DNA of 44,624 nt from an uncultured Cryomorphaceae bacterium. GTDB taxonomy: Bacteria; Bacteroidota; Bacteroidia; Flavobacteriales_G; Salibacteraceae. The translations under genes were made by a program, and so were the position numbers. Positions within the stretch are counted from its first letter, which is position 1. Every line of letters begins with the position of its first letter. This document shows, piece by piece, positions 7,964 through 37,693 of the stretch. Under the pieces are notes generated by a model. It was not told where the DNA came from and searched no databases. It saw only the letters and a program-made list of their open reading frames with translations. The DNA lies in contig CAJXMT010000003.1 in assembly GCA_913056155.1 (NCBI GenBank), positions 1-44,624 of the forward strand. Reading direction: 5' to 3'.

Positions 7964-8897
7964 AGAAAATCGAAAAGAGTTATTGAATTTACTAAGATCT
8001 TTCAACTGCGAGATAAAGGACGATAAGGCTAGACTTAATAGCCTTATACCGGCTTTATCAGGACTAAAAATAGTTCAGTATAAAATCCCAAAGGGAATGT
8101 CAATTTATCGAGCACGGCCGCATAAAACGAGAAATGAAGTGTTTTCTTTTGAAGATCAAATATCTTACAGACGCGATTACTTCAATATTGATATATTGGG
8201 CAGGTGTAATATACAGCAGTCATCAAAATTTTACGGTGCTGTTACTTCAACTGAAATTAAACACGGCTGGATGCCGGCAATTGTTGAAACCTCAAAGTTA
8301 TACAGAGATGGCAAAGATGGATATGAACTGTATTCCATTGGAAAATGGAAAGCAAAAGAAGATTTATACTTATACGCAATAAAACCACCAAAACACAAAA
8401 GCAATGCGAGTGACTTAAGCAAAGAGCTTTATGGTTTGTATGAAGACAAAAAGCCTGAACCAATAGAGAATGAAATTTTTGAACAATTAGGAAAAGAATT
8501 TTCGAAAAACGTGCCTTCAGATCAAAATGAGCAGTATTATCTTTCAGCATGTTTATCAGAAGCAATTCTCAATGGATCGCAAATCGGAATATTATATCCA
8601 TCTGTACAGGTTGAGAGTAAATCCTACAACATAGTGATGAATCCGGATAAGTTTGATAGATATTTTGAAATTGACAAAGTCATGGTTAGTGAACTCTTTA
8701 AAGTCAAAAAAGAAGTTCTCGTTAGGAATTCCGATATCTGTTTAAATGCTAAATCTCAACCTTTTCAGTTTTATCGAGTTGAAGAACGTGAATATCAACC
8801 CGATGATGCTGTTAAAAATCGACTCTTTAAAAACGGCATTAGCAAAGGTGACATTGATTGGGTCTTTAATGAGAGGAAAAAATTTTTGGGCAAGTAG
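7953..8897 (+). CDS. RES-domain-like protein (putative NAD+-degrading toxin of an Xre-RES pair)
   Basis: MSIYRARPH ... GRCNIQQSSKFYGAVTST ... AIVETSKL resembles the RES pattern; position after an Xre gene. Confidence 0.5.
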   Translation: MTIEENRKELLNLLRSFNCEIKDDKARLNSLIPALSGLKIVQYKIPKGMSIYRARPHKTRNEVFSFEDQISYRRDYFNIDILGRCNIQQSSKFYGAVTSTEIKHGWMPAIVETSKLYRDGKDGYELYSIGKWKAKEDLYLYAIKPPKHKSNASDLSKELYGLYEDKKPEPIENEIFEQLGKEFSKNVPSDQNEQYYLSACLSEAILNGSQIGILYPSVQVESKSYNIVMNPDKFDRYFEIDKVMVSELFKVKKEVLVRNSDICLNAKSQPFQFYRVEEREYQPDDAVKNRLFKNGISKGDIDWVFNERKKFLGK

Positions 8898-20413: not shown

Positions 20414-21058
20414 TTATTGGTCGTTCAATCTCATTACCCACACACCGCGCTTTTCATCTCGATTTATTATTTTAAATCCAAACTCACGTGCTATGTATTC
20501 CATGGTTTGCGAATGATAAAAAAATACGTGGGTAAAATCCCCCGCGTAATACCATTTTTTAAAGTTGGTTTGCGCGGTGTAAGGTTGCGTCATTATGACT
20601 AAAATACCGCCTTTTACCAACAGTTTACAAAGCGTATCTAATTCTTTCCGTGGGTTTTTAAAATGCTCAAAGGTTTCTGTGGAAAAAATAAAATCGTACT
20701 GCTTTTGAGGAAGTTGAGGCTGAAAATAGAAGTCGTATGCCTCACATTTGTATCCCTTTTGCTCGAGGATTTCTGTTAAAACAGGTTTTGGTCCGCTTCC
20801 GTAATCCAGCCCTTTATCGACAGTATGTAAATAAGGTTCTGCCGGAATAACGGCTCTGAGCAAAAAATCAACATATCCCTTATTTTCAATGGTATTATTG
20901 TGCGTGAGATAACGCTCTTTTTCTTTTATACCGCTCTCCATTTGAGCCTCTCTCACAAAAACGCCTTCACAATTTTCACATTTGAATAAACACCTGCTTA
21001 ACGAATCCTCTGTAAATTCAGCAACCCGAGCAGATAGGCAAAGCGGACAGTACATCAT
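20414..21058 (-). CDS. Class I SAM-dependent methyltransferase
   Basis: CPLCLS zinc-like N terminus, LDYGSGPKPVLTEIL, FETFEHFKNP-type region. Confidence 0.85.
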   Translation of the reverse strand: MMYCPLCLSARVAEFTEDSLSRCLFKCENCEGVFVREAQMESGIKEKERYLTHNNTIENKGYVDFLLRAVIPAEPYLHTVDKGLDYGSGPKPVLTEILEQKGYKCEAYDFYFQPQLPQKQYDFIFSTETFEHFKNPRKELDTLCKLLVKGGILVIMTQPYTAQTNFKKWYYAGDFTHVFFYHSQTMEYIAREFGFKIINRDEKRGVWVMRLNDQ

Positions 21059-21477
21059 ATTTTATTTACTCTGCGTTCATGCCTTCCCCCTTCAAATTTT
21101 TCTTTTAAAAAGGCTTTCAAACAATTTAAAGCTGTGGTTTCATCTATAAAGCGTGCCGGTAAAGCCAATACATTGGCATTGTTATGTTGAACGGCTAATT
21201 CTGCTAATTCAGGCAACCAACAAAGTGCACTTCTTATATGATCGTGTTTATTTACAGCCATATTTATACCGTTCCCGCTACCGCAAATAACAATACCTCT
21301 ATTTGCATCACCTGTTTTCATGGTCTTTGCCACTGCATGAGCATAATCGGGATAATCACAACTTTCTTCACTGTAAGTACCGCAATCTATAACAGTATAA
21401 CCTTCTTTTTCGAGGTATGCAACCAGTTTGTTTTTTAACTTTAAACCCGCATGATCGTTCCCTAATGCAATATTCAT
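21055..21477 (-). CDS. rpiB: Ribose-5-phosphate isomerase B
   Basis: ALGNDHAGLKLK, YPDYAHAVA, GIVICGSGNGINMAVNK. Confidence 0.95.
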   Translation of the reverse strand: MNIALGNDHAGLKLKNKLVAYLEKEGYTVIDCGTYSEESCDYPDYAHAVAKTMKTGDANRGIVICGSGNGINMAVNKHDHIRSALCWLPELAELAVQHNNANVLALPARFIDETTALNCLKAFLKEKFEGGRHERRVNKI

Positions 21478-21906
21478 AATATAAAGTATTCGTTAAATGT
21501 ATGTTATGAGGTTATGAACAACACTACTCATCTTTTTATTTGTAACACGTTAATAACCTCTGACAAGTTCTACTTGCAATTGTAAAAATAAAATTCAATG
21601 CGTCTTGTTTGTGAGATCACCAAATAAGTTAGCGCAAATTTAAGCGTAATTTATCGACAAGTAACCAACGGCTTTGCGCAAAGAATTTTTATTTTTATGC
21701 TCATGAATAACCTATACTAACAACATGTTGAAAACCCTCGTTACTATTATTCTTGAACCTTTTAAAAACTGATAAGTTGTTTACTTTCGTGGATATTTTT
21801 TGATAACCCGTAAAAGCAAGAAAAAAATAATATTTTTATCAACCTTATCCACACCCTAATAATAGTAATAGATATTTTATAAAATAAAGAATACTATAAT
21901 AAAGAG
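21478..21906. other. Candidate chromosomal replication origin (oriC)
   Basis: TTATCCACA (21845-21853), TTATCGACA (21651-21659, 1 mismatch), 2-mismatch boxes at 21512, 21726, 21788 and 21836; CCC then TAATAATAGTAATAG (21857-21871) and an AT-rich stretch. Confidence 0.6.
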
Positions 21907-23457
21907 ATGTTTAAAACAATAATCAAAACCTTAGGTCTTTTCTTGTGCTTTCCCGTTTTAGTTTTGTCTCAAGATGAAAGCACAATTGATCCCAATGGTT
22001 ACAACATATTTTACTACGAGAACGGACAAGTTTCGGCGGAAGGTTATTTCAAAAACGGAAAACCCACCGGATTGTGGAAAACGTATTACGAAACCGGTCA
22101 ATTAAAATCTGAGGGAAAGCGGGTCAAAGATAAGCCTGACAGCACTTGGCTTTTTTACCGTGAAGACGGTGCGCTTATTGAAAAAATAAATTATGAAGAC
22201 GGTAATCGCAGCGGTTTTACTTTTCAGTATAACGAAGAGGGTTTATTAAAATCCAAAGTTCATTATGAAAATGATGTAAAGACGGGTAAGGGGTTTCTTT
22301 ATTATCCCGAGTTACAAACCATTCAAGAAGAGCGCTTTTTTGTTGAAGGTAAGCCTGAAAGTACTGCCTATGAGTACAATAAAAAAGAAGAAATTGTATC
22401 GATACTCACCTACGAAAAAGGTTTTTTGAAAGATAGAATGGATATAAACCGCCGTGATCCTAAGGGCAAAAAAGTAGGATTGTGGATTACGTATTACAAT
22501 GATGTAGAACCGGATGAAGGAATTGAAAAAGCTAAGCAATTGGAAGGGCGTTATCGCAACGGACTCAAAAACGGTTATTTTAGGGAATATGATCGCAACG
22601 GGGAATTGCTCAGTACATTGAAATATATAGACGGTAAAGTTGTTGAAAATGCCGAAGAGCTCATGGCCGTTGAAAAAAAGAGAACGTTTCATCCCAATGC
22701 GCAAATTGAGTGGGAAAAGAACTACTTAAACGGTAAAGAGCACGGCATTTGGAAAAAATACGACGACTCCGGGCATATCGTAGATGGAGCTATTTATAAC
22801 AAAGGTGTTTTATTGGGCAAAGGAGTAGTCGATCATCAAGGTTTAAAACAAGGAACCTGGTTAGAATACTTTGAAACGGGTGAATTAAGAGCTAAAGGAG
22901 AATATAAAGACGGTGCGCGTTACGGAGAATGGAAATTCTTTTTTAAAAACGAACAAACAGAGCAAACGGGCAAGTATATAGCCGGGGGTAAACCACACGG
23001 CATGTGGCGGTGGTATTATGAAGACGGGAGTTTGCTGCGGAAAGAAGAGTTTAGAAACGGTCGTGAAGATGGTGAAATAGTGGAATATGACCGTGAAGGT
23101 AATATTCTGCTGAAAGGTTATTATGTTTCGGGGTTGCGTGACGGCGATTGGATGATTATAAGCGGGGATTATAAAATGGAAGGTAAATACATTGATGGTT
23201 ATCGCTTCGGAACCTGGGAACACCGGTACTTAAAAGAAAATGAATTGGCCTTTAAAGGTGATTTCATTGACGGCCTGCCGGATGGAAAGCACCGGTATTA
23301 CCATCCCAACGGAAACAGAAAGCTCATTGGAAATTATGAGGCAGGCAGCAAACAAGGTGACTGGCGACGTTATAATGAACAAGGCGTGTTGTTATTGACC
23401 ATCGATTATGATCAAAATAAAGACGACCGAATAAACGGGAAAAAAGTGAAACCTTAA
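21907..23457 (+). CDS. YwqK/MORN-like repeat protein, exported
   Basis: Repeated YYENGQ.xAEGYFKNGKPTGLWKTYYETGQL-type units; signal peptide. Confidence 0.85.
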   Translation: MFKTIIKTLGLFLCFPVLVLSQDESTIDPNGYNIFYYENGQVSAEGYFKNGKPTGLWKTYYETGQLKSEGKRVKDKPDSTWLFYREDGALIEKINYEDGNRSGFTFQYNEEGLLKSKVHYENDVKTGKGFLYYPELQTIQEERFFVEGKPESTAYEYNKKEEIVSILTYEKGFLKDRMDINRRDPKGKKVGLWITYYNDVEPDEGIEKAKQLEGRYRNGLKNGYFREYDRNGELLSTLKYIDGKVVENAEELMAVEKKRTFHPNAQIEWEKNYLNGKEHGIWKKYDDSGHIVDGAIYNKGVLLGKGVVDHQGLKQGTWLEYFETGELRAKGEYKDGARYGEWKFFFKNEQTEQTGKYIAGGKPHGMWRWYYEDGSLLRKEEFRNGREDGEIVEYDREGNILLKGYYVSGLRDGDWMIISGDYKMEGKYIDGYRFGTWEHRYLKENELAFKGDFIDGLPDGKHRYYHPNGNRKLIGNYEAGSKQGDWRRYNEQGVLLLTIDYDQNKDDRINGKKVKP

Positions 23458-24164: not shown

Positions 24165-25217
24165 TCAGGATTCTTCTCTAAAATATACCTTGTAAAAGCT
24201 CATTTGCTTTTTTTCGTCAAATCCCTTTTCCAAATAATGATTCACTTGGTTTTCATTATTAAAATTGAGTTTGATTTGAATTTGACCGTCCAATTTAATG
24301 GTGTTATTAAGCTTATTAACCGATTTTTTAGAGGTATCCTTATCAATGGTGAATTGAGGTCTTTCCGGTAACTCATTTTGTATGTCGTACTCTTTTTTAT
24401 AGTCTTTGAATTTTTCTTTGTACTCATCTGTCTGAATCACTTCCTCCACAAAATCATCCATATCGAATGATTCTTTTTGATCAAAATATTTAGCCGTTCT
24501 ATCCAACATTTCCATTCTGGCCGGTGCAGAATCGTTGTGTTCTACCATTTCATTGGCAAAGGAATTTACGGCTTCAAATGTTTTACCGGTAAAGTAACTT
24601 TCGTTAGTATCGGGTTTTACATTTAAAAATTGCTCAGGCCAGTACTTGGCGTCATAGTTATTTTGATCAGAGAGTAGTAAACGATATCCGGAATCTTTTT
24701 CGGTTTCGAATATGATGCAGCCTTTATCACTTTTATCTATATTCAAACCTTCTTCGGGTTTAATGTTGTATTGATCTGTTTGATTAATAAGTTTTAAAAA
24801 AGTATCCTTTCGCTCGAATTTAAAGATACCTATTGCATTTACCGGCTCACCTTCAATAATAATATTTTCAAAAAATGTGATGCAGCACTCACCGTTTTTA
24901 ATGGCCGGATGTTGTGATTTTTCCTGCAAGTACTCAGCAATCTTTTTAGATTGTGAAGTGAATTCATAGGGATTTTCAAATATGCTTTTCACAAAAAAAT
25001 AAACGTCGTTACGTGCCAAATCCTGTGAATGGTGATGAAACTTGTAAAAACTTTGATTGGTTTTAAACGGTTTAATTAAAAACCGATGTAGCGTTTCTTC
25101 CAATTCATCACTGAGTGGAATTGTTTTATTTGTAAGTAAAAAATTATTTTCATCTGATTGGTTTCCAACAGTATGAATAATGCAATTTTGAAGTGTTGAT
25201 TCTGTAAATACTACCAT
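24165..25217 (-). CDS. Nucleoid-associated protein, NdpA/YejK-like
   Basis: N-terminal IIHTVGNQ...L..ELEETLHRFLIKPFK and overall layout resemble the 37-kDa nucleoid-associated family. Confidence 0.7.
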   Translation of the reverse strand: MVVFTESTLQNCIIHTVGNQSDENNFLLTNKTIPLSDELEETLHRFLIKPFKTNQSFYKFHHHSQDLARNDVYFFVKSIFENPYEFTSQSKKIAEYLQEKSQHPAIKNGECCITFFENIIIEGEPVNAIGIFKFERKDTFLKLINQTDQYNIKPEEGLNIDKSDKGCIIFETEKDSGYRLLLSDQNNYDAKYWPEQFLNVKPDTNESYFTGKTFEAVNSFANEMVEHNDSAPARMEMLDRTAKYFDQKESFDMDDFVEEVIQTDEYKEKFKDYKKEYDIQNELPERPQFTIDKDTSKKSVNKLNNTIKLDGQIQIKLNFNNENQVNHYLEKGFDEKKQMSFYKVYFREES

Positions 25218-29493: not shown

Positions 29494-32400
29494 ATGGAAA
29501 ATAACTCAAATTTACTTATCAAAAAACTTGATGATTTCATAATACGATATTATCGAAATGAGATTATTAAAGGATTGATATATACATTCTTAATTGCGTT
29601 AAGTCTTTTTGTATTCATTAATTATGCCGAGTATATATTTGGCTTCAACGGTTTTATAAGAGCCGTTTTTTATTTTGGATTTATTACTGCATTCCTTCTT
29701 TCATTTGGTTGGGGTGTCGTAAAACCTACTGCTAAGTTGCTGAATATGGGGCGCGATTTAAATCGCAATAAAGCTGCTGAAATTATAGGTAAGCATTTTG
29801 CTCACGTTGAAGACAGATTGTTAAATGTGCTTTACCTACAAAACGAAAAAACCAATGATTTGGCTCTGGCAATGGTTGATCAAAGAACTCGAGAATTGGA
29901 TACCGTTCCTTTTCCGGAGGCGATCGACTTATCTCCGAGTAAAAAGGGTTTGAAGTATTTGGGAGTTGTTTTGGGGTTAGGCGTTTTAACTTTTGCCATT
30001 GCGCCGGATTTATTTTTTACAGGCACGCACCATATCGTAAATTACCATATACCTTTTGAAAAGCAGGCTCCTTTTAAGTTTGAATTGTTGAACGAAAATT
30101 TAAGAGTGAAACGTGGAGATGATTTGACGATTAAGGTTCAAATTGAAGGTAAAAGTGTTCCTGATAAGTTAAATATCATCTATGCAGGTTCTACATGGAA
30201 AATGAAACCCGGTGAAGAAAGCACATTTGTACTCACCTTGAAAAATATACAACAACCGGGAAATTTTTATTTCGCCACAGGCAAATATCAAAGTGAGGAC
30301 TTTATTATTCACTTGATAGATGTTCCTGCGTTATCCGGGTTTTCAATGGATGTGGAATATCCCGAATACCTGAACAAAGAGCAGGAAACGTTTTCGGGTG
30401 TATCAGAACTTTCATTGCCTGAGGGTTCTGAAATTAAATGGAATTTTGATGTTGAAAACACGGATAGTATAGCTTTTATTCCTGATTCTTTATTTTCTTG
30501 GTCAGAACCAAGAAGCCACCTTTTGAAAAGAAGATTGACGTATTCAGTGGCCCTTATTGGTCGTGAAATGATTGATACAGTGATAAATAATTTTGTGATT
30601 GATATCATAGAGGATGAATATCCTGAAATATCTGTTGAATTACGCCGCGATAGCACGGGGTTAAACACCGTGTATTTTGTTGGTGAGGTAGCAGATGATA
30701 ACGGATTGTTATCCCTTGATGCTGTCGTGTTTGGTGAAAGAATGAACATAGAAAACTTAAGGGGACGCTCAACGCATCGCTTTTTCCACGCTTTAAATCT
30801 GGATAGCTTAGAGACGAATGAAAGAGGTATTTACTTTGAGGTATTTGACAATGATGAGGTGAATAACTATAAAGCTTCCCAAAGTGAGGTTTTTGTAGTC
30901 GATAAATTGTCGAGTAAAGAAATGGCGGAAGTCAGGAGGAAAAAGAATAAAAATTTAGAGAAAAGTCTTGAAGAACTAAAAGAGCTTTCAGAAGATATGA
31001 ATCGTGAGATCAGTGATTTTAGAGAAGAACTGATCAAAAAGGAGAAGACAGATTGGCAAGATAAGAAGCGATTAGAGGATCTACTTGAGATGCAAAATCA
31101 ATTGGAAAAGAAATCAGAAAAGGTCAAAAGGGAGAAAAAGGAACTGTCGGAGTTGAATGAGAAGAATTTCGATATGTCTGAAGAATTAAAGGAAAAACAG
31201 AAAAAGTTAGATGAACTGTTTGATAAGCTGATGGAAGATGAGGAATTGCGGGAACTTTTTGAGGAAATGGAGAAGCTTCGAGAGGATATGAATAAAGATG
31301 AACTGCTTGAAAATCTTGAAGATATGGAATTCAATCAGGAAGATATTAATGAACAGCTCGACCGGGAAATGGAGTTGTTTAAGCGTTTGGAACTGGAAAA
31401 GGACTGGGAAGATGCGGCGGATCGAATGAAGGAGTTACAAGAAAAGCAAGATGAGCTCGCAGAAAATGAGGATCTAAGTGATGAAGAGAGAAAAGATGAA
31501 CAGGATGAATTAAATGAGGAATTCGATGTGTTGAAACAGGAAGTGGATGAAATGGAGGAACGCGCTGAAGAGCTCGGAATGGATGATTTAGATATGGATA
31601 ATGAATCCATGGAAGATATTACAGACGACATGAATGAAGCATCTGAAAAGGCAGGCGAAGGGGATTCAAAAGGATCAAAGGAGAAACAGAAAGATGCAGC
31701 TGAGAAAATGGGCGAGATGAGTGATGCCATGAATAGTGCTATGCAAAGTCAACAAGCGGAACAACTGGAAGTGGACATGGAAGCTATGCGTATGATTCAA
31801 GAAAACTTGATTCAATTATCTTTTAGACAAGAAGACGTGATGAATTCTTTTTCTGTTACCAATACGGATAACCCACAGTACGTGAATTTGACTATTGAAC
31901 AAAACAACATTGTTGATGATACAAAAATGGTTGAAGACAGTTTACGGGAGTTGTCGAAAAGGCTGTTCTTTTTGGAAGAAATGATTACCACGGAATTGAG
32001 AGAATTGAATCGAAATTTAGCTAAAACTGTTGATGGGATGGTAGAGCGGCAAAAAGAAAATGCAGGAGTTACCGGGAGAGAAGGCATGAAAAATTATAAC
32101 AATTTGGCTTTATTGATTGGTGAAATGCTTCAACAGATGCAGGAACAAATGGCACAGCAAAAATTTGGTGAAGGTAATTGTAATAAACCCGGAAGTGCTT
32201 CAAAACCGGGTAAGGGTCAAATGAAAAAGATGAAAGAGCAACTGAAGAAGAATATGGAGAAGATGAAGGACATGCTGGGTAAAAATAAGGGCGGTCAAGA
32301 AAAGGGTGAAGGAGAAAAAGAAGGCGGTTCAGGCGGTAGTAAGTCCGATCAAAGCGAACAACTTTCCAAGATGGTTGGTGAACAAAAGGCTATGCGCAAC

Positions 32401-32766
32401 GCCCTAAGGCAAATGGCCGCTGAGGAAGCCAAAAAGGAAGGTGGGGGTGCGGGTGAGAAATTGAAAGAAATTGAAAAGAAATTAGAAGATAATGAAGAGG
32501 ATTTTGTGAATCAAAGAATTGATTTAGAGACCCTTAAACGACAGCAGGAGATTATGTCGAAAATGCTTGAAGCTGAAACTGCTATGCGTGAACAGGACAA
32601 ACAAGAGGAAAGAGAGAGTGAGGTGGGAAAGAAAAAACAAAAAGAGGTACCACCGGAAATATTGGATTATTTGAAAGAGAAGGAGAGAGTCGCTGACTTA
32701 TTTCGAAAATCACCGACTGAATTGAATCGATTTTACAAGGAACGCGTAAACCGATATTTTGAGTAA
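29494..32766 (+). CDS. DUF4175-like large membrane/coiled-coil protein
   Basis: N-terminal TM segments, long E/K/D/M-rich coiled coil, position upstream of ybeY-mnmG. Confidence 0.75.
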   Translation: MENNSNLLIKKLDDFIIRYYRNEIIKGLIYTFLIALSLFVFINYAEYIFGFNGFIRAVFYFGFITAFLLSFGWGVVKPTAKLLNMGRDLNRNKAAEIIGKHFAHVEDRLLNVLYLQNEKTNDLALAMVDQRTRELDTVPFPEAIDLSPSKKGLKYLGVVLGLGVLTFAIAPDLFFTGTHHIVNYHIPFEKQAPFKFELLNENLRVKRGDDLTIKVQIEGKSVPDKLNIIYAGSTWKMKPGEESTFVLTLKNIQQPGNFYFATGKYQSEDFIIHLIDVPALSGFSMDVEYPEYLNKEQETFSGVSELSLPEGSEIKWNFDVENTDSIAFIPDSLFSWSEPRSHLLKRRLTYSVALIGREMIDTVINNFVIDIIEDEYPEISVELRRDSTGLNTVYFVGEVADDNGLLSLDAVVFGERMNIENLRGRSTHRFFHALNLDSLETNERGIYFEVFDNDEVNNYKASQSEVFVVDKLSSKEMAEVRRKKNKNLEKSLEELKELSEDMNREISDFREELIKKEKTDWQDKKRLEDLLEMQNQLEKKSEKVKREKKELSELNEKNFDMSEELKEKQKKLDELFDKLMEDEELRELFEEMEKLREDMNKDELLENLEDMEFNQEDINEQLDREMELFKRLELEKDWEDAADRMKELQEKQDELAENEDLSDEERKDEQDELNEEFDVLKQEVDEMEERAEELGMDDLDMDNESMEDITDDMNEASEKAGEGDSKGSKEKQKDAAEKMGEMSDAMNSAMQSQQAEQLEVDMEAMRMIQENLIQLSFRQEDVMNSFSVTNTDNPQYVNLTIEQNNIVDDTKMVEDSLRELSKRLFFLEEMITTELRELNRNLAKTVDGMVERQKENAGVTGREGMKNYNNLALLIGEMLQQMQEQMAQQKFGEGNCNKPGSASKPGKGQMKKMKEQLKKNMEKMKDMLGKNKGGQEKGEGEKEGGSGGSKSDQSEQLSKMVGEQKAMRNALRQMAAEEAKKEGGGAGEKLKEIEKKLEDNEEDFVNQRIDLETLKRQQEIMSKMLEAETAMREQDKQEERESEVGKKKQKEVPPEILDYLKEKERVADLFRKSPTELNRFYKERVNRYFE

Positions 32767-33206
32767 TGGCTATTCAGTTGAACGGATCTGAAAAACCGGA
32801 TTTTCAAAATCCGGAGAAAGTACGAAACGCTCTTATAGAGTTGATGTCTTTTTTAGGTTTTCGTACAGGAGAAATCGTTTATGTTTTCATCGACAAAAAG
32901 GCGATGATAAAATTGAATACAGAAGTATTGGATCATCGATACGCAACAGATATTATCACATTTAATGAGAGCGTGAACAAGCGTATTTATTGTGATATAT
33001 TTTTGTGTCCGGAAGTGATTATGGAGAATGCGCAACGGTTTAAAGTGAATTTTGAAACGGAGTTATTCCGCGTTATGGTGCATGGATTATTGCACTGTAT
33101 GGGGTGGAATGATGTTACAGAAAAGGAAAAAACTGATATGAGAATCGCCGAGGAAAAGGCGTTGAAATTTTTACATGTTTCACGTGAAACAAATACATAT
33201 TTATGA
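32766..33206 (+). CDS. ybeY: Endoribonuclease YbeY
   Basis: [23 protein letters not shown] zinc-site region. Confidence 0.93.
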
Positions 33207-35077
33207 TTCAAAACTATGATGCTATTGTAGTGGGTGCAGGCCATGCAGGCTGTGAAGCTGCTGCGGCCGCAGCTAATATGGGACAAAACGTATTGTTGGT
33301 CACAATGGATATGACTCGTACTGCGCAAATGAGTTGCAATCCCGCAATGGGTGGAGTTGCCAAAGGTCAAATTCTACGAGAAATTGATGCCCTCGGGGGC
33401 TTAAGTGCGGTAGTAACTGATAAAAGCGCGATACAGTTTCGAATGTTGAATCGATCTAAAGGACCGGCAATGTGGTCTCCGCGTACTCAGAATGACAGAG
33501 CTTTATTTAATACATATTGGCGCGAAGAACTAGAAGCTATACCAACTTTGGATTTTTGGCAAGATATGGTCGTTGGTTTCATTATAGAGAATAATCGAGT
33601 GAGAGGAGTCAAGACGGGGCTTGGTATCGATATTCCGTGTAAAACTGTAATTGTAACAAGTGGTACATTTTTGAATGGGACCATTCATATTGGTGAAAAG
33701 CGCATGGGTGGAGGCAGAAGCGGTGAGAAGTCTTCAACCGGAATTACCGAACAATTAGTACAATTGGGATTTGAAGCGGGTCGAATGAAGACAGGAACTC
33801 CGCCTCGGGTTGATGGTCGAAGCTTGGATTATTCTAAAATGGAGGAACAAAAGGGAGATGAGAAACCGGGTAAATTTTCGTTTTCGAATAGAACCTCGCC
33901 GCTAACTAAACAGCTGAGTTGTCAAATTACGTACACGAACCCGGTAGTTCATGATACCTTAGCTTCAGGTTTTGACCGTAGCCCGATGTTTAACGGCGCC
34001 ATTGAAAGTAAAGGTCCGCGATATTGTCCATCAATCGAAGATAAGATTCACCGATTTGCAGAACGCGACAGACATCAAATATTTGTTGAACCGGAAGGAT
34101 GGAATACCGTGGAGTGTTATGTAAACGGCTTCAGCACTTCCTTACCCGAGGATGTTCAATTTCGTGCCATCAGGCAAATGGTGGGGTTTGAAAATGCCAA
34201 AATTTTTAGACCGGGATACGCTATTGAATACGATTATTTTCCCCCTACACAGCTTAAGTATTCATTAGAAACGAAATTAGTTGAAGGTCTGTTTTTTGCA
34301 GGCCAGATTAATGGAACTACAGGTTATGAAGAGGCCGCCTGTCAGGGTTTAATGGCCGGAATTAATGCTGCGTTAAAAGTGCAAGATAAAGAGGCTTTTG
34401 TTTTAGGACGTGAATCTGCCTATATTGGTGTACTCATTGACGATTTAATTACAAAAGGTACTGAGGAACCTTACCGAATGTTTACCTCGCGTGCGGAGTA
34501 TCGTATTTTATTAAGACAAGATAATGCGGACGAAAGACTCACACGTTTATCGCATGCTATTGGATTGGCTTCAGATAAGCGCGTGCGAGAAATGGAAAAA
34601 AAGAAGATTTTGAAAAAATCGCTTCGTACATTTTTAGATCGTGAAAGCGCAGATCCCAAGGAACTGAATGATTGGTTGGTTTCACGTGGAACATCACCTT
34701 TAAAGCAAAAAGTAAAATATATTGATATATTGAAGCGACCTCAAATTGACTTGGACGGATTAGTGAAGTACGGAACCACTTTTCAAAAGTTCATCAACTC
34801 AGAATTATCGGGAGAAGATTTGGTTTTGGAAGGTGTCGAAATAGAATCGAAGTATGAAGGCTATATTCAAAAAGAGAAAGAAATGGCCGATAAAATGCAA
34901 CGACTGGAAAATATAAAAATTCCCGATCGTGTGGATTATCATGCCTTGACTTCGATAAGTGCTGAGGCACGCGAAAAACTTTCGAATATAAAACCCGAAA
35001 CTTTAGGTCAAGCTTCTCGCATCAGTGGAGTGAGTCCGGCAGATATTAGTGTCTTGCTTATTCATTTGGGAAGGTAG
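33203..35077 (+). CDS. mnmG: tRNA uridine-5-carboxymethylaminomethyl modification enzyme
   Basis: [53 protein letters not shown]. Confidence 0.98.
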
Positions 35078-35347
35078 TTAAAAACAAGCCTTTTTTTATA
35101 AAAGGAATTGAAATGGGGTTGTTTGTTCCACTAAAATAGCCCGATAAGGGTGTAAGTCATTTTTTAGGAGATCTTACAAATGAAGGGTTTTTTTAATATA
35201 TTGATAATCAGATAACAAAATACAATGCATGATAAACTGAAGAATTGGGGTTTTGACCAATGTAAATAATCAAATGTTTTTGAATGACGAGAGTTTGCTC
35301 AGGCTTGGTGAAAATGAAATGATTTTCACAATTTGGCGTTGTATCTA

Positions 35348-37693
35348 AAATTTATGTTGATGAAGGTTTTATCATTTCTAGTTGTATTGGTTTTTTCCGC
35401 CGGCGGTTTTGCTCAGGAACGCGGTGTAGGAACTTGGATTGATTATTTGCCCTACGGGGAAGTTCATACGGTTGTAAAGCAAGGTAACAAAGTTTATGGT
35501 GCCACTCCGTTTGCACTGGTGGAAATTGATGTTCGCGATATGGCCGCTTCACGGTTAAGTCGAGTAACGGGTTTGTCGGGAACAAACGTCACGGCACTTG
35601 CAGCATCAGATGCATTGAACGTAGTTGTTGTGGGATATGCCTCGGGAAGCTTAGACATTATACAAGGCAATACAATACGTACTTACAACGATATTCAACG
35701 CTCTTCCGACTTCCCCGAAAGAGGTATTCAAAACATTAATATTCAGGGGAGTGATGCCTATATATCCACTCAATTCGGTATTGTCAAGTACAACTTGGAA
35801 AGACGTGAAGTGAGTGACACCTATTTGCCGGGTGACGGCGCCGCTGCACTTGAAATTAACAGTACTTGCATTTTGAATGATACATTATACGCAGCTACTG
35901 AGGAGGGCATGATTGCGGCTGATTTGAATAATCCGCTTTTACGAATCGGCGAGTCATGGCGTCGAATGAGCGAAGTGCCCATGGCCGATTCAGCGTACCA
36001 CGACGTGATAAGTTTTAACAATCAACTAATCATAAATAAGCGCAGCAGGGAATTTAAAAAGGATTCTGTTTTGGTCAGAACCGAAACCGGTTGGCAAACT
36101 CCGGCGGGGTTTGGAAATTGGAACTTTTTTTCTTTGAAAGTGCAAGGCGATATGTTGATGGTCGCGCGAAATGAAGATGTTGTTTTTCTCAATTCTGATT
36201 ACGAAACGGAGTTTAATATATTTACCTACGAAACAGAAGAACTTCCGGCCCCGCGCGATATAATTTCGGGTGATAATCCCGAGGAGTATTGGATCGCCGA
36301 TAATAATCAGGGTGTGATCAGGAACGAACGCATTTGGATGAATGATCGTTTTTTGTTGCAAAGTCCGCAGGCTAGCAGGGCGCGCAGATTCGATTTTGCT
36401 CACGGCAAAAGTTATGTGGCATCAGGCGGTATAACGGTGAGGCAAGTACCTCAATTTACCCGGGACGGTTTTTTTATACAAAATAACAATACGGGCGTAT
36501 GGAAAAATTACAGCTTTAGGAATTATCCTGAAATGGAGGATTATTTTGATTTTGTGGATATAGCTGCAGATCGCAATGCGAGTAATCGATTTTACACCGC
36601 CTCTTACAGTAACGGTGTTTTAGCTTGGGAAGATGATGAGTTGGTTGCCGTGTATAACAATACCAACACGCCGTTGGGCGGTGATGATAGAAGTGAAGAC
36701 GAGCCCGACATTCAGGTGAGCAGTATAGCCGTGGATGATGAAAATAATTTATGGATGACTGTGACCAATGTTCAAGAGGCATTGGCCGTTAAAACAGAAG
36801 ACGATGAGTTTTACAGCTACAACTTTGCGGGATTAATTGATTTTGGAGATCGGGTAGGCGATGTGCTGATTACCTCAAACGGGCACAAATGGGTAAACTT
36901 ACTCGATAAGGGTATTTTGGTTTTTGATGATAACGGTACATTAAATAATACAGACGATGATCAAGCCCTCATTTTGAATGCGCAAGAAGGAAGTGGTAAC
37001 CTTCCATCAACCGGAGTTTTAAGCATGGCAGAGGACAACTCAGGCCGTATTTGGGTAGGAACCGATCAAGGGGTGGCCGTGTTTTTTTCTCCTTCGAATG
37101 TAACAGAGGCGAATAATGATGTAGATGCACAACAAATCTTTGTTCAAGTGGACGGTTTTACTCAGTATTTATTAGAAAATGAGGCAGTAACGGCAATTGC
37201 AATAGATGGTGCAGATCGAAAATGGTTTGCTACCGAGGGGTCGGGCGTTTTTTTGATGAGCGCTGACGGAACGGAGCAAATTTTTCATTTCACTGAGGCT
37301 AACAGTTCTTTGCTCAGTGATGTTGTAGTAGCTTTGGATGTAAACCCGTTTAATGGTGAAGTATTGATAGCTACAGATGCCGGTTTAACCGCATTTAAGG
37401 GAACGGCAACTGCTCCCGATGCGCTCATGCAAGATGTTTATGCGTACCCCAATCCGGTTCACCCGCACTTTACGGGAAATATTGCCATTAAAGGATTAGC
37501 GCGGGATGCCCGAGTAAAAATTACCGATATAAACGGGAACCTTGTATTTGATACACGTGCTGAGGGCGGTCAAGCAATATGGAACGGAAACGGGCCAAAC
37601 GGCAGTCGCGTTCCCACGGGAATTTACCTGGTTTTTGCTGCAGATCAACAAGGTGTTGAATCTGTGGCCACAAAAATTATGTTTGTGAATTAA
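35348..37693 (+). CDS. porZ: PorZ-like T9SS-associated beta-propeller protein with C-terminal sorting-like domain
   Basis: Signal peptide, GTWIDYLPYGEVHTV, propeller repeats (GRIWVGTDQGVAVFF), YAYPNPVHPHF...GIYLVFAADQQG C-terminal domain. Confidence 0.8.
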   Translation, partial: KFMLMKVLSFLVVLVFSAGGFAQERGVGTWIDYLPYGEVHTVVKQGNKVYGATPFALVEIDVRDMAASRLSRVTGLSGTNVTALAASDALNVVVVGYASGSLDIIQGNTIRTYNDIQRSSDFPERGIQNINIQGSDAYISTQFGIVKYNLERREVSDTYLPGDGAAALEINSTCILNDTLYAATEEGMIAADLNNPLLRIGESWRRMSEVPMADSAYHDVISFNNQLIINKRSREFKKDSVLVRTETGWQTPAGFGNWNFFSLKVQGDMLMVARNEDVVFLNSDYETEFNIFTYETEELPAPRDIISGDNPEEYWIADNNQGVIRNERIWMNDRFLLQSPQASRARRFDFAHGKSYVASGGITVRQVPQFTRDGFFIQNNNTGVWKNYSFRNYPEMEDYFDFVDIAADRNASNRFYTASYSNGVLAWEDDELVAVYNNTNTPLGGDDRSEDEPDIQVSSIAVDDENNLWMTVTNVQEALAVKTEDDEFYSYNFAGLIDFGDRVGDVLITSNGHKWVNLLDKGILVFDDNGTLNNTDDDQALILNAQEGSGNLPSTGVLSMAEDNSGRIWVGTDQGVAVFFSPSNVTEANNDVDAQQIFVQVDGFTQYLLENEAVTAIAIDGADRKWFATEGSGVFLMSADGTEQIFHFTEANSSLLSDVVVALDVNPFNGEVLIATDAGLTAFKGTATAPDALMQDVYAYPNPVHPHFTGNIAIKGLARDARVKITDINGNLVFDTRAEGGQAIWNGNGPNGSRVPTGIYLVFAADQQGVESVATKIMFVN

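Follow-up and report, generated by a model that had tools for sequence, protein, structure and literature searches.

Is the AT-rich intergenic region between rpiB and a MORN-repeat gene (21478–21906) the place where this chromosome begins to replicate, and if so, how would DnaA open it? The window, that is, the whole 44,624-nucleotide stretch analysed, is an entire contig (C3) of a genome in 288 contigs (G000), so that genome's own global skew is not readable from it. An earlier note had proposed the region as a candidate oriC. This reading drew support from a skew switch, a conserved core, enrichment of DnaA boxes, nearby parS sites and an intact DnaA, and from these sequence comparisons we consider it very probable that 21478–21906 is the oriC of a chromosome from the Bacteroidota, class Bacteroidia.

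The intergenic region and its core motif

The region separates two divergent genes, whose identities agree with the earlier note: the rpiB product matched PF02502 (E = 7e-58) and the MORN product PF07661. As the note had also stated, dnaA lies outside the window; we found it on a separate contig (C23), where it encodes a complete, intact DnaA. Two proteins encoded near the origin, of 350 aa (24165–25217) and 1090 aa (29494–32766), lacked any Pfam match. The features discussed below are as follows.

21055–21477, minus strand: rpiB, ribose-5-phosphate isomerase B (PF02502, TIGR01120), a conserved flank of the origin
21478–21906, no strand: putative origin region, AT-rich intergenic DNA (GC 0.28) between divergent rpiB and MORN genes
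21512–21520, plus strand: DnaA-box-like TTATGAACA, matching the lineage form TTATnAACA
21549–21556, minus strand: box-like TTATTAAC, matching the lineage form TTATnAACA over its first 8 bases
21651–21659, plus strand: DnaA-box-like TTATCGACA, 1 mismatch
21726–21734, minus strand: DnaA-box-like TTTTCAACA, listed in the earlier note as TGTTGAAAA at 21726
21788: box-like 9-mer CGTGGATAT
21836–21844, plus strand: weaker upstream DnaA box TTATCAACC, 2 mismatches to TTATCCACA
21845–21853, plus strand: perfect DnaA box TTATCCACA, directly abutting TTATCAACC
21854–21856, plus strand: 3-bp spacer CCC
21857–21871, plus strand: triplet array TAATAATAGTAATAG (TAA-TAA-TAG-TAA-TAG)
21872–21906, plus strand: AT-rich stretch, presumed to continue the unwinding element; the downstream columns are T-rich in relatives
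21907–23457, plus strand: MORN-repeat (YwqK-like) protein (PF07661, MORN_2 repeats), the usual flank in the family; its ATG at 21907 directly follows the AT-rich stretch
33176–33191, no strand: perfect parS centromere site TGTTTCACGTGAAACA, at the end of ybeY; distance to the core, 11.3 kb
34678–34693, no strand: second, near-perfect parS-like site GGTTTCACGTGGAACA, in mnmG

All motif letters and coordinates listed in the earlier note held up on direct inspection of the sequence. The perfect box TTATCCACA occurs exactly once in the window. When we searched for a box with at most two mismatches, a spacer of 0–16 bases and at least four TA[AG] triplets, the core at 21836–21871 was the only match in the window. 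The same combination arose in 1 of 200 dinucleotide-preserving shuffles of the window (0 of 200 when the box had to be perfect), and it was absent from 1.2 Mb sampled outside the origins of two relatives.

GC skew at rpiB and at dnaA

Within the window, cumulative GC skew reached its minimum at 22017, and the 10-kb flanks had skews of -0.059 (left) and +0.109 (right). Global skew was sampled as 20-kb stretches in two single-contig relatives from the same family, G003 and G014. In G003 (4.12 Mb), skew was negative from base 1 to 1,860,000, positive from 1,864,001 and negative again from about 3.87–4.0 Mb; the flip from -0.160 to +0.132 fell between 1,860,000 and 1,864,001, with the core at 1,862,091. 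Likewise, in G014 (5.10 Mb), whose core is at 1,672,404, skew flipped from -0.053 to +0.028 between 1,670,000 and 1,673,001, and the reverse flip fell between 3.9 and 4.3 Mb. In both relatives the return to negative skew thus comes roughly across the chromosome from the core. At the locus, skew went from negative to positive in 11 of 12 further family genomes; G002, from the same genus as the window, showed no clear local skew change there. Among eight genomes from other families, the sign switched at the locus in five (G044, G047, G049, G051 and G059) and did not in G050, G054 and G056. In most relatives tested, no more than about 600 bp separated the skew minimum from the rpiB start. The intergenic region thus sits at a GC-skew switch of the kind expected of an oriC.

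The G003 and G014 assemblies are numbered from dnaA (at base 25 and base 49, respectively), 1.7–1.9 Mb from the rpiB/MORN locus, as would suit an origin at dnaA with the switch at rpiB left as the scar of a large inversion. However, skew did not change sign at dnaA in G003 or G014, box/triplet clusters were absent near dnaA in six genomes, and the same rpiB switch is seen in many separate lineages. We regard such an inversion scar as exceedingly improbable. The flanks of dnaA were rejected as the origin, having neither a skew flip nor a box/triplet cluster. The earlier note had named a skew minimum or a better box cluster elsewhere as the outcomes that would count against its proposal; neither turned up, the flips in G003 and G014 falling at this locus and no superior cluster being present in the window or beside dnaA in the six genomes.

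parS sites near the locus

The window also contains a pair of parS sites, 11–13 kb from the origin, that had escaped the earlier note. In 13 genomes, rpiB and a perfect parS share a contig and lie 5–18 kb apart, so that parS sites lie near the locus both in the window and in its relatives. They are on the MORN side in G000, G002, G003 and G013, and on the rpiB side in G004, G014, G019 and G025. Their occurrence on either side at similar distance suggests symmetric inversions around an origin. A PorZ-like type IX secretion gene (35333–37693), adjoining recO, lies about 13 kb from the origin.

Conservation of the core beside rpiB

The earlier note had suggested examining synteny in relatives. 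The order of rpiB, an AT-rich intergenic region of about 350–550 bp and a MORN gene recurs throughout the family and beyond, and the arrangement of rpiB and core is kept over many families. Just before the MORN gene, relatives carry a weak 9-mer box, a [G/C]TAT[C/T]AACA box, 3 bp and a series of TA steps. The weak box is a conserved 9-mer usually ending in AACA; the column of the perfect box mostly reads [G/C]TAT[C/T]AACA; the spacer is 3 bp in nearly all relatives, its first two bases mostly G or C; and a TA step every 3 bp is conserved across 33 cores.

We built a sequence-only profile (R1) from 15 family cores, leaving the window out, that covers the weak DnaA box, the DnaA box, the 3-bp spacer and the TA-triplets. 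Its best match in the window's genome was the core itself (21836–21879, E = 1.6e-5; next best, 0.2). Among 15 held-out genomes with a match at E ≤ 0.01, the best match lay beside rpiB in 14. Of 296 genomes sampled across the class, 35 had a match at E ≤ 0.001, and 18 of 22 newly fetched class-wide loci adjoin rpiB. Under stricter filters, the core was undetected at E ≤ 0.001 in 261 of the 296 class genomes and hence is not universal; Bacteroidales-type relatives (for example, Alistipes, L086) had no core at rpiB. The core signal is common to much of the class Bacteroidia. In the window, the core lies within about 1 kb of the rpiB 5′ end, as in a Bacteroidota-type rpiB-flanked origin. Several family members (L019, L022, L027, L029 and L030) share another conserved element mid-origin, ATTTTGGATGATGTTTTATTTGGA or a near variant, which is absent from the window.

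A conserved block directly upstream of a start codon might instead control the divergent rpiB/MORN pair as a promoter or other regulatory element, possibly DnaA-regulated, with the origin nearby but elsewhere; divergent intergenic regions are usually regulatory. Yet in some other families nadA replaces the MORN gene as the second neighbour (L233, L011/L202) and the core stays beside rpiB, which shows that it is not tied to the MORN gene; a MORN promoter was rejected on this ground. A regulatory site would also leave the skew flip and parS unexplained, and sits poorly with the skew minima close to the rpiB start in most relatives. We consider it very unlikely.

DnaA boxes across the intergenic region

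Counted in 500-base stretches, the window's box-like sites are densest within 21351–22000, so that a cluster of DnaA boxes coincides with AT-rich DNA, as is typical of oriC. In 22 origin intergenic regions (10 kb in all), the most enriched words were forms of TATnAAC. TTATnAACA was tenfold enriched, with 33 occurrences where 3.2 were expected and no more than 7 in any of 100 shuffles; TTATCCACA with one mismatch occurred 13 times against 3.6 expected. TTATnAACA is therefore probably the DnaA box of this lineage, and TTATCCACA is the copy in the window that best represents the general consensus. The box-reading helix of DnaA is DHATVLHA in all six family members inspected (dnaA loci L112–L117, including L114), compared with DHTTVLHA in E. 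coli; a link between this helix and a box shift toward TTATnAACA is only a suggestion.

DnaA titration sites likewise carry boxes, and this intergenic region is box-rich, as it would be if it titrated DnaA (datA-like) or had another DnaA role beside the true origin. However, triplets abutting tandem boxes at fixed spacing are a mark of unwinding elements (PMC6669920, PMC8287927), and the origin position given by skew coincides with the site to within a few hundred bases, making titration or another such role highly improbable.

Polarity of the triplet array

The earlier note had interpreted the triplets as DnaA-trios. Triplets are indeed present; the strand assignment did not stand, since TAA and TAG on the box strand have the opposite of the published polarity. 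On the canonical strand, only the first triplet (GAT) fits the stringent form 3′-(G/A)AT-5′. The minus strand of the array reads 3′-GAT-TAT-TAT-CAT-TAT-5′ (5′-CTATTACTATTATTA-3′), in a register that begins in the spacer. By the looser BUS search rule (a box with at most 2 mismatches, a tandem partner with at most 4, a spacer of at most 16 bp and at least three 3′-NAN-5′; PMC8287927), the core qualifies, with 0 and 2 mismatches in its boxes, a spacer of about 3 bp and this same minus-strand array.

Most of the 33 cores have the inverted polarity, with triplets on the box strand: on the box strand, TA(A/G) fitted a mean of 3.1 of 5 triplets, versus 0.9 of 5 in canonical polarity, and the third triplet base was a purine on the box strand in 114 of 132 cases versus 108 of 297 in downstream columns. 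These counts are not fully independent, since R1 and some of the cores were chosen by the triplet pattern. The family cores come straight from raw intergenic regions, and some of the others were found via a triplet-pattern profile. TA is its own reverse complement, so polarity is carried by the variable base alone. Within the mostly inverted group, two cores (L188 in G014 and L247 in G072) read CTATTACTA, in the usual DnaA-trio polarity, and here a polarity switch could be studied in nature.

It is a plausible proposal, though short of probable, that many Bacteroidia open their chromosome by an inverted-polarity array, 5′-TA(A/G)-3′ on the strand of the TTATCCACA-type box. Under this proposal, DnaA may grip the strand opposite to that gripped in B. 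subtilis; alternatively, it may grip the usual strand through an E. coli-like TTATT/YTA code at trio spacing. The minus strand of the core holds TTATT. The polarity of characterized DnaA points to the minus strand, whereas the published TA(A/G) consensus fits the plus strand only. We find the minus-strand, E. coli-like reading with trio spacing somewhat more likely than a true strand inversion.

In the proposed sequence of events, DnaA encoded by the distant gene would bind the scattered TTATnAACA-like boxes and the tandem pair at 21836–21853. The pair would guide DnaA across the 3-bp spacer to the neighbouring triplets; there DnaA would grip one opened strand and melt the AT-rich DNA toward the MORN gene. 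Helicases would then be loaded, and two forks would depart in opposite directions.

Comparison with known origins

The box orientation used here for B. subtilis oriC is partly general knowledge and partly taken from published fragments. The window resembles the B. subtilis BUS in its tandem boxes, short G+C-rich spacer, triplet array of 3-bp period and AT-rich DNA, and differs in not being located at dnaA. In B. subtilis, 5′-CTACTATTACTTCTACTA-3′ runs away from the boxes (PMC10201434), whereas the window has TAATAATAGTAATAG in that direction; B. subtilis DnaA loads 3′ to 5′ on the complementary strand, on a 3′-GAT-5′ repeat (PMC6669920). A virus-like IMG/VR contig (L210) carries, at 8680–8815, four copies of TTATCCACA with an 11-bp period and a textbook-like unwinding element, TTATCCACA-GGCC-CTACTATTACTATTAG. 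Its order, TTATCCACA-GGCC-CTACTATTACT, is that of B. subtilis; the box is reversed in two viral contigs, so the L210 order is not decisive for box orientation.

On the R1 box strand, E. coli oriC reads TTATCCACA...CCTAATAAGAG, resembling TTATCCACACCCTAATAATAG in the window, and the strand opposite the R1 box has TTATT, as does the window's minus strand. TTATT is the motif that E. coli DnaA requires for binding the opened strand (PMC5742627). In contrast to the 3 bp and five triplets of the window, E. coli (R1 box and R 13-mer) has a 13-bp gap and no long triplet array. H. pylori oriC2 is similar in its box, GC-rich spacer, DnaA-trios, AT-rich region and lineage-specific box form. There, opening was lost when trio polarity was reversed or positions 1 and 3 were altered (PMC8235120); the window array has that reversed polarity.

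Implications

Predicted Bacteroidetes origins (DoriC; for example, Prevotella intermedia) likewise lie far from dnaA, at a skew switch, and the common distance of Bacteroidetes oriC from dnaA is already published (PMC4755523). In the accessible literature on Bacteroidetes origins, we found no description of the rpiB flank, the core, the box form or the triplet polarity, and the sole open-access match joining DnaA-trio with a 'Bacteroid-' term concerns legume nodule bacteroids. The conserved inverted-triplet core may be an undescribed form of a known unwinding element. The analysis pins down the origin of a lineage in which dnaA gives no guide to its position, which is useful for growth-rate estimates from metagenome coverage, genome circularization and oriC plasmids, and the conserved inverted polarity of the triplets offers a direct test of how strictly the box sets DnaA strand choice.
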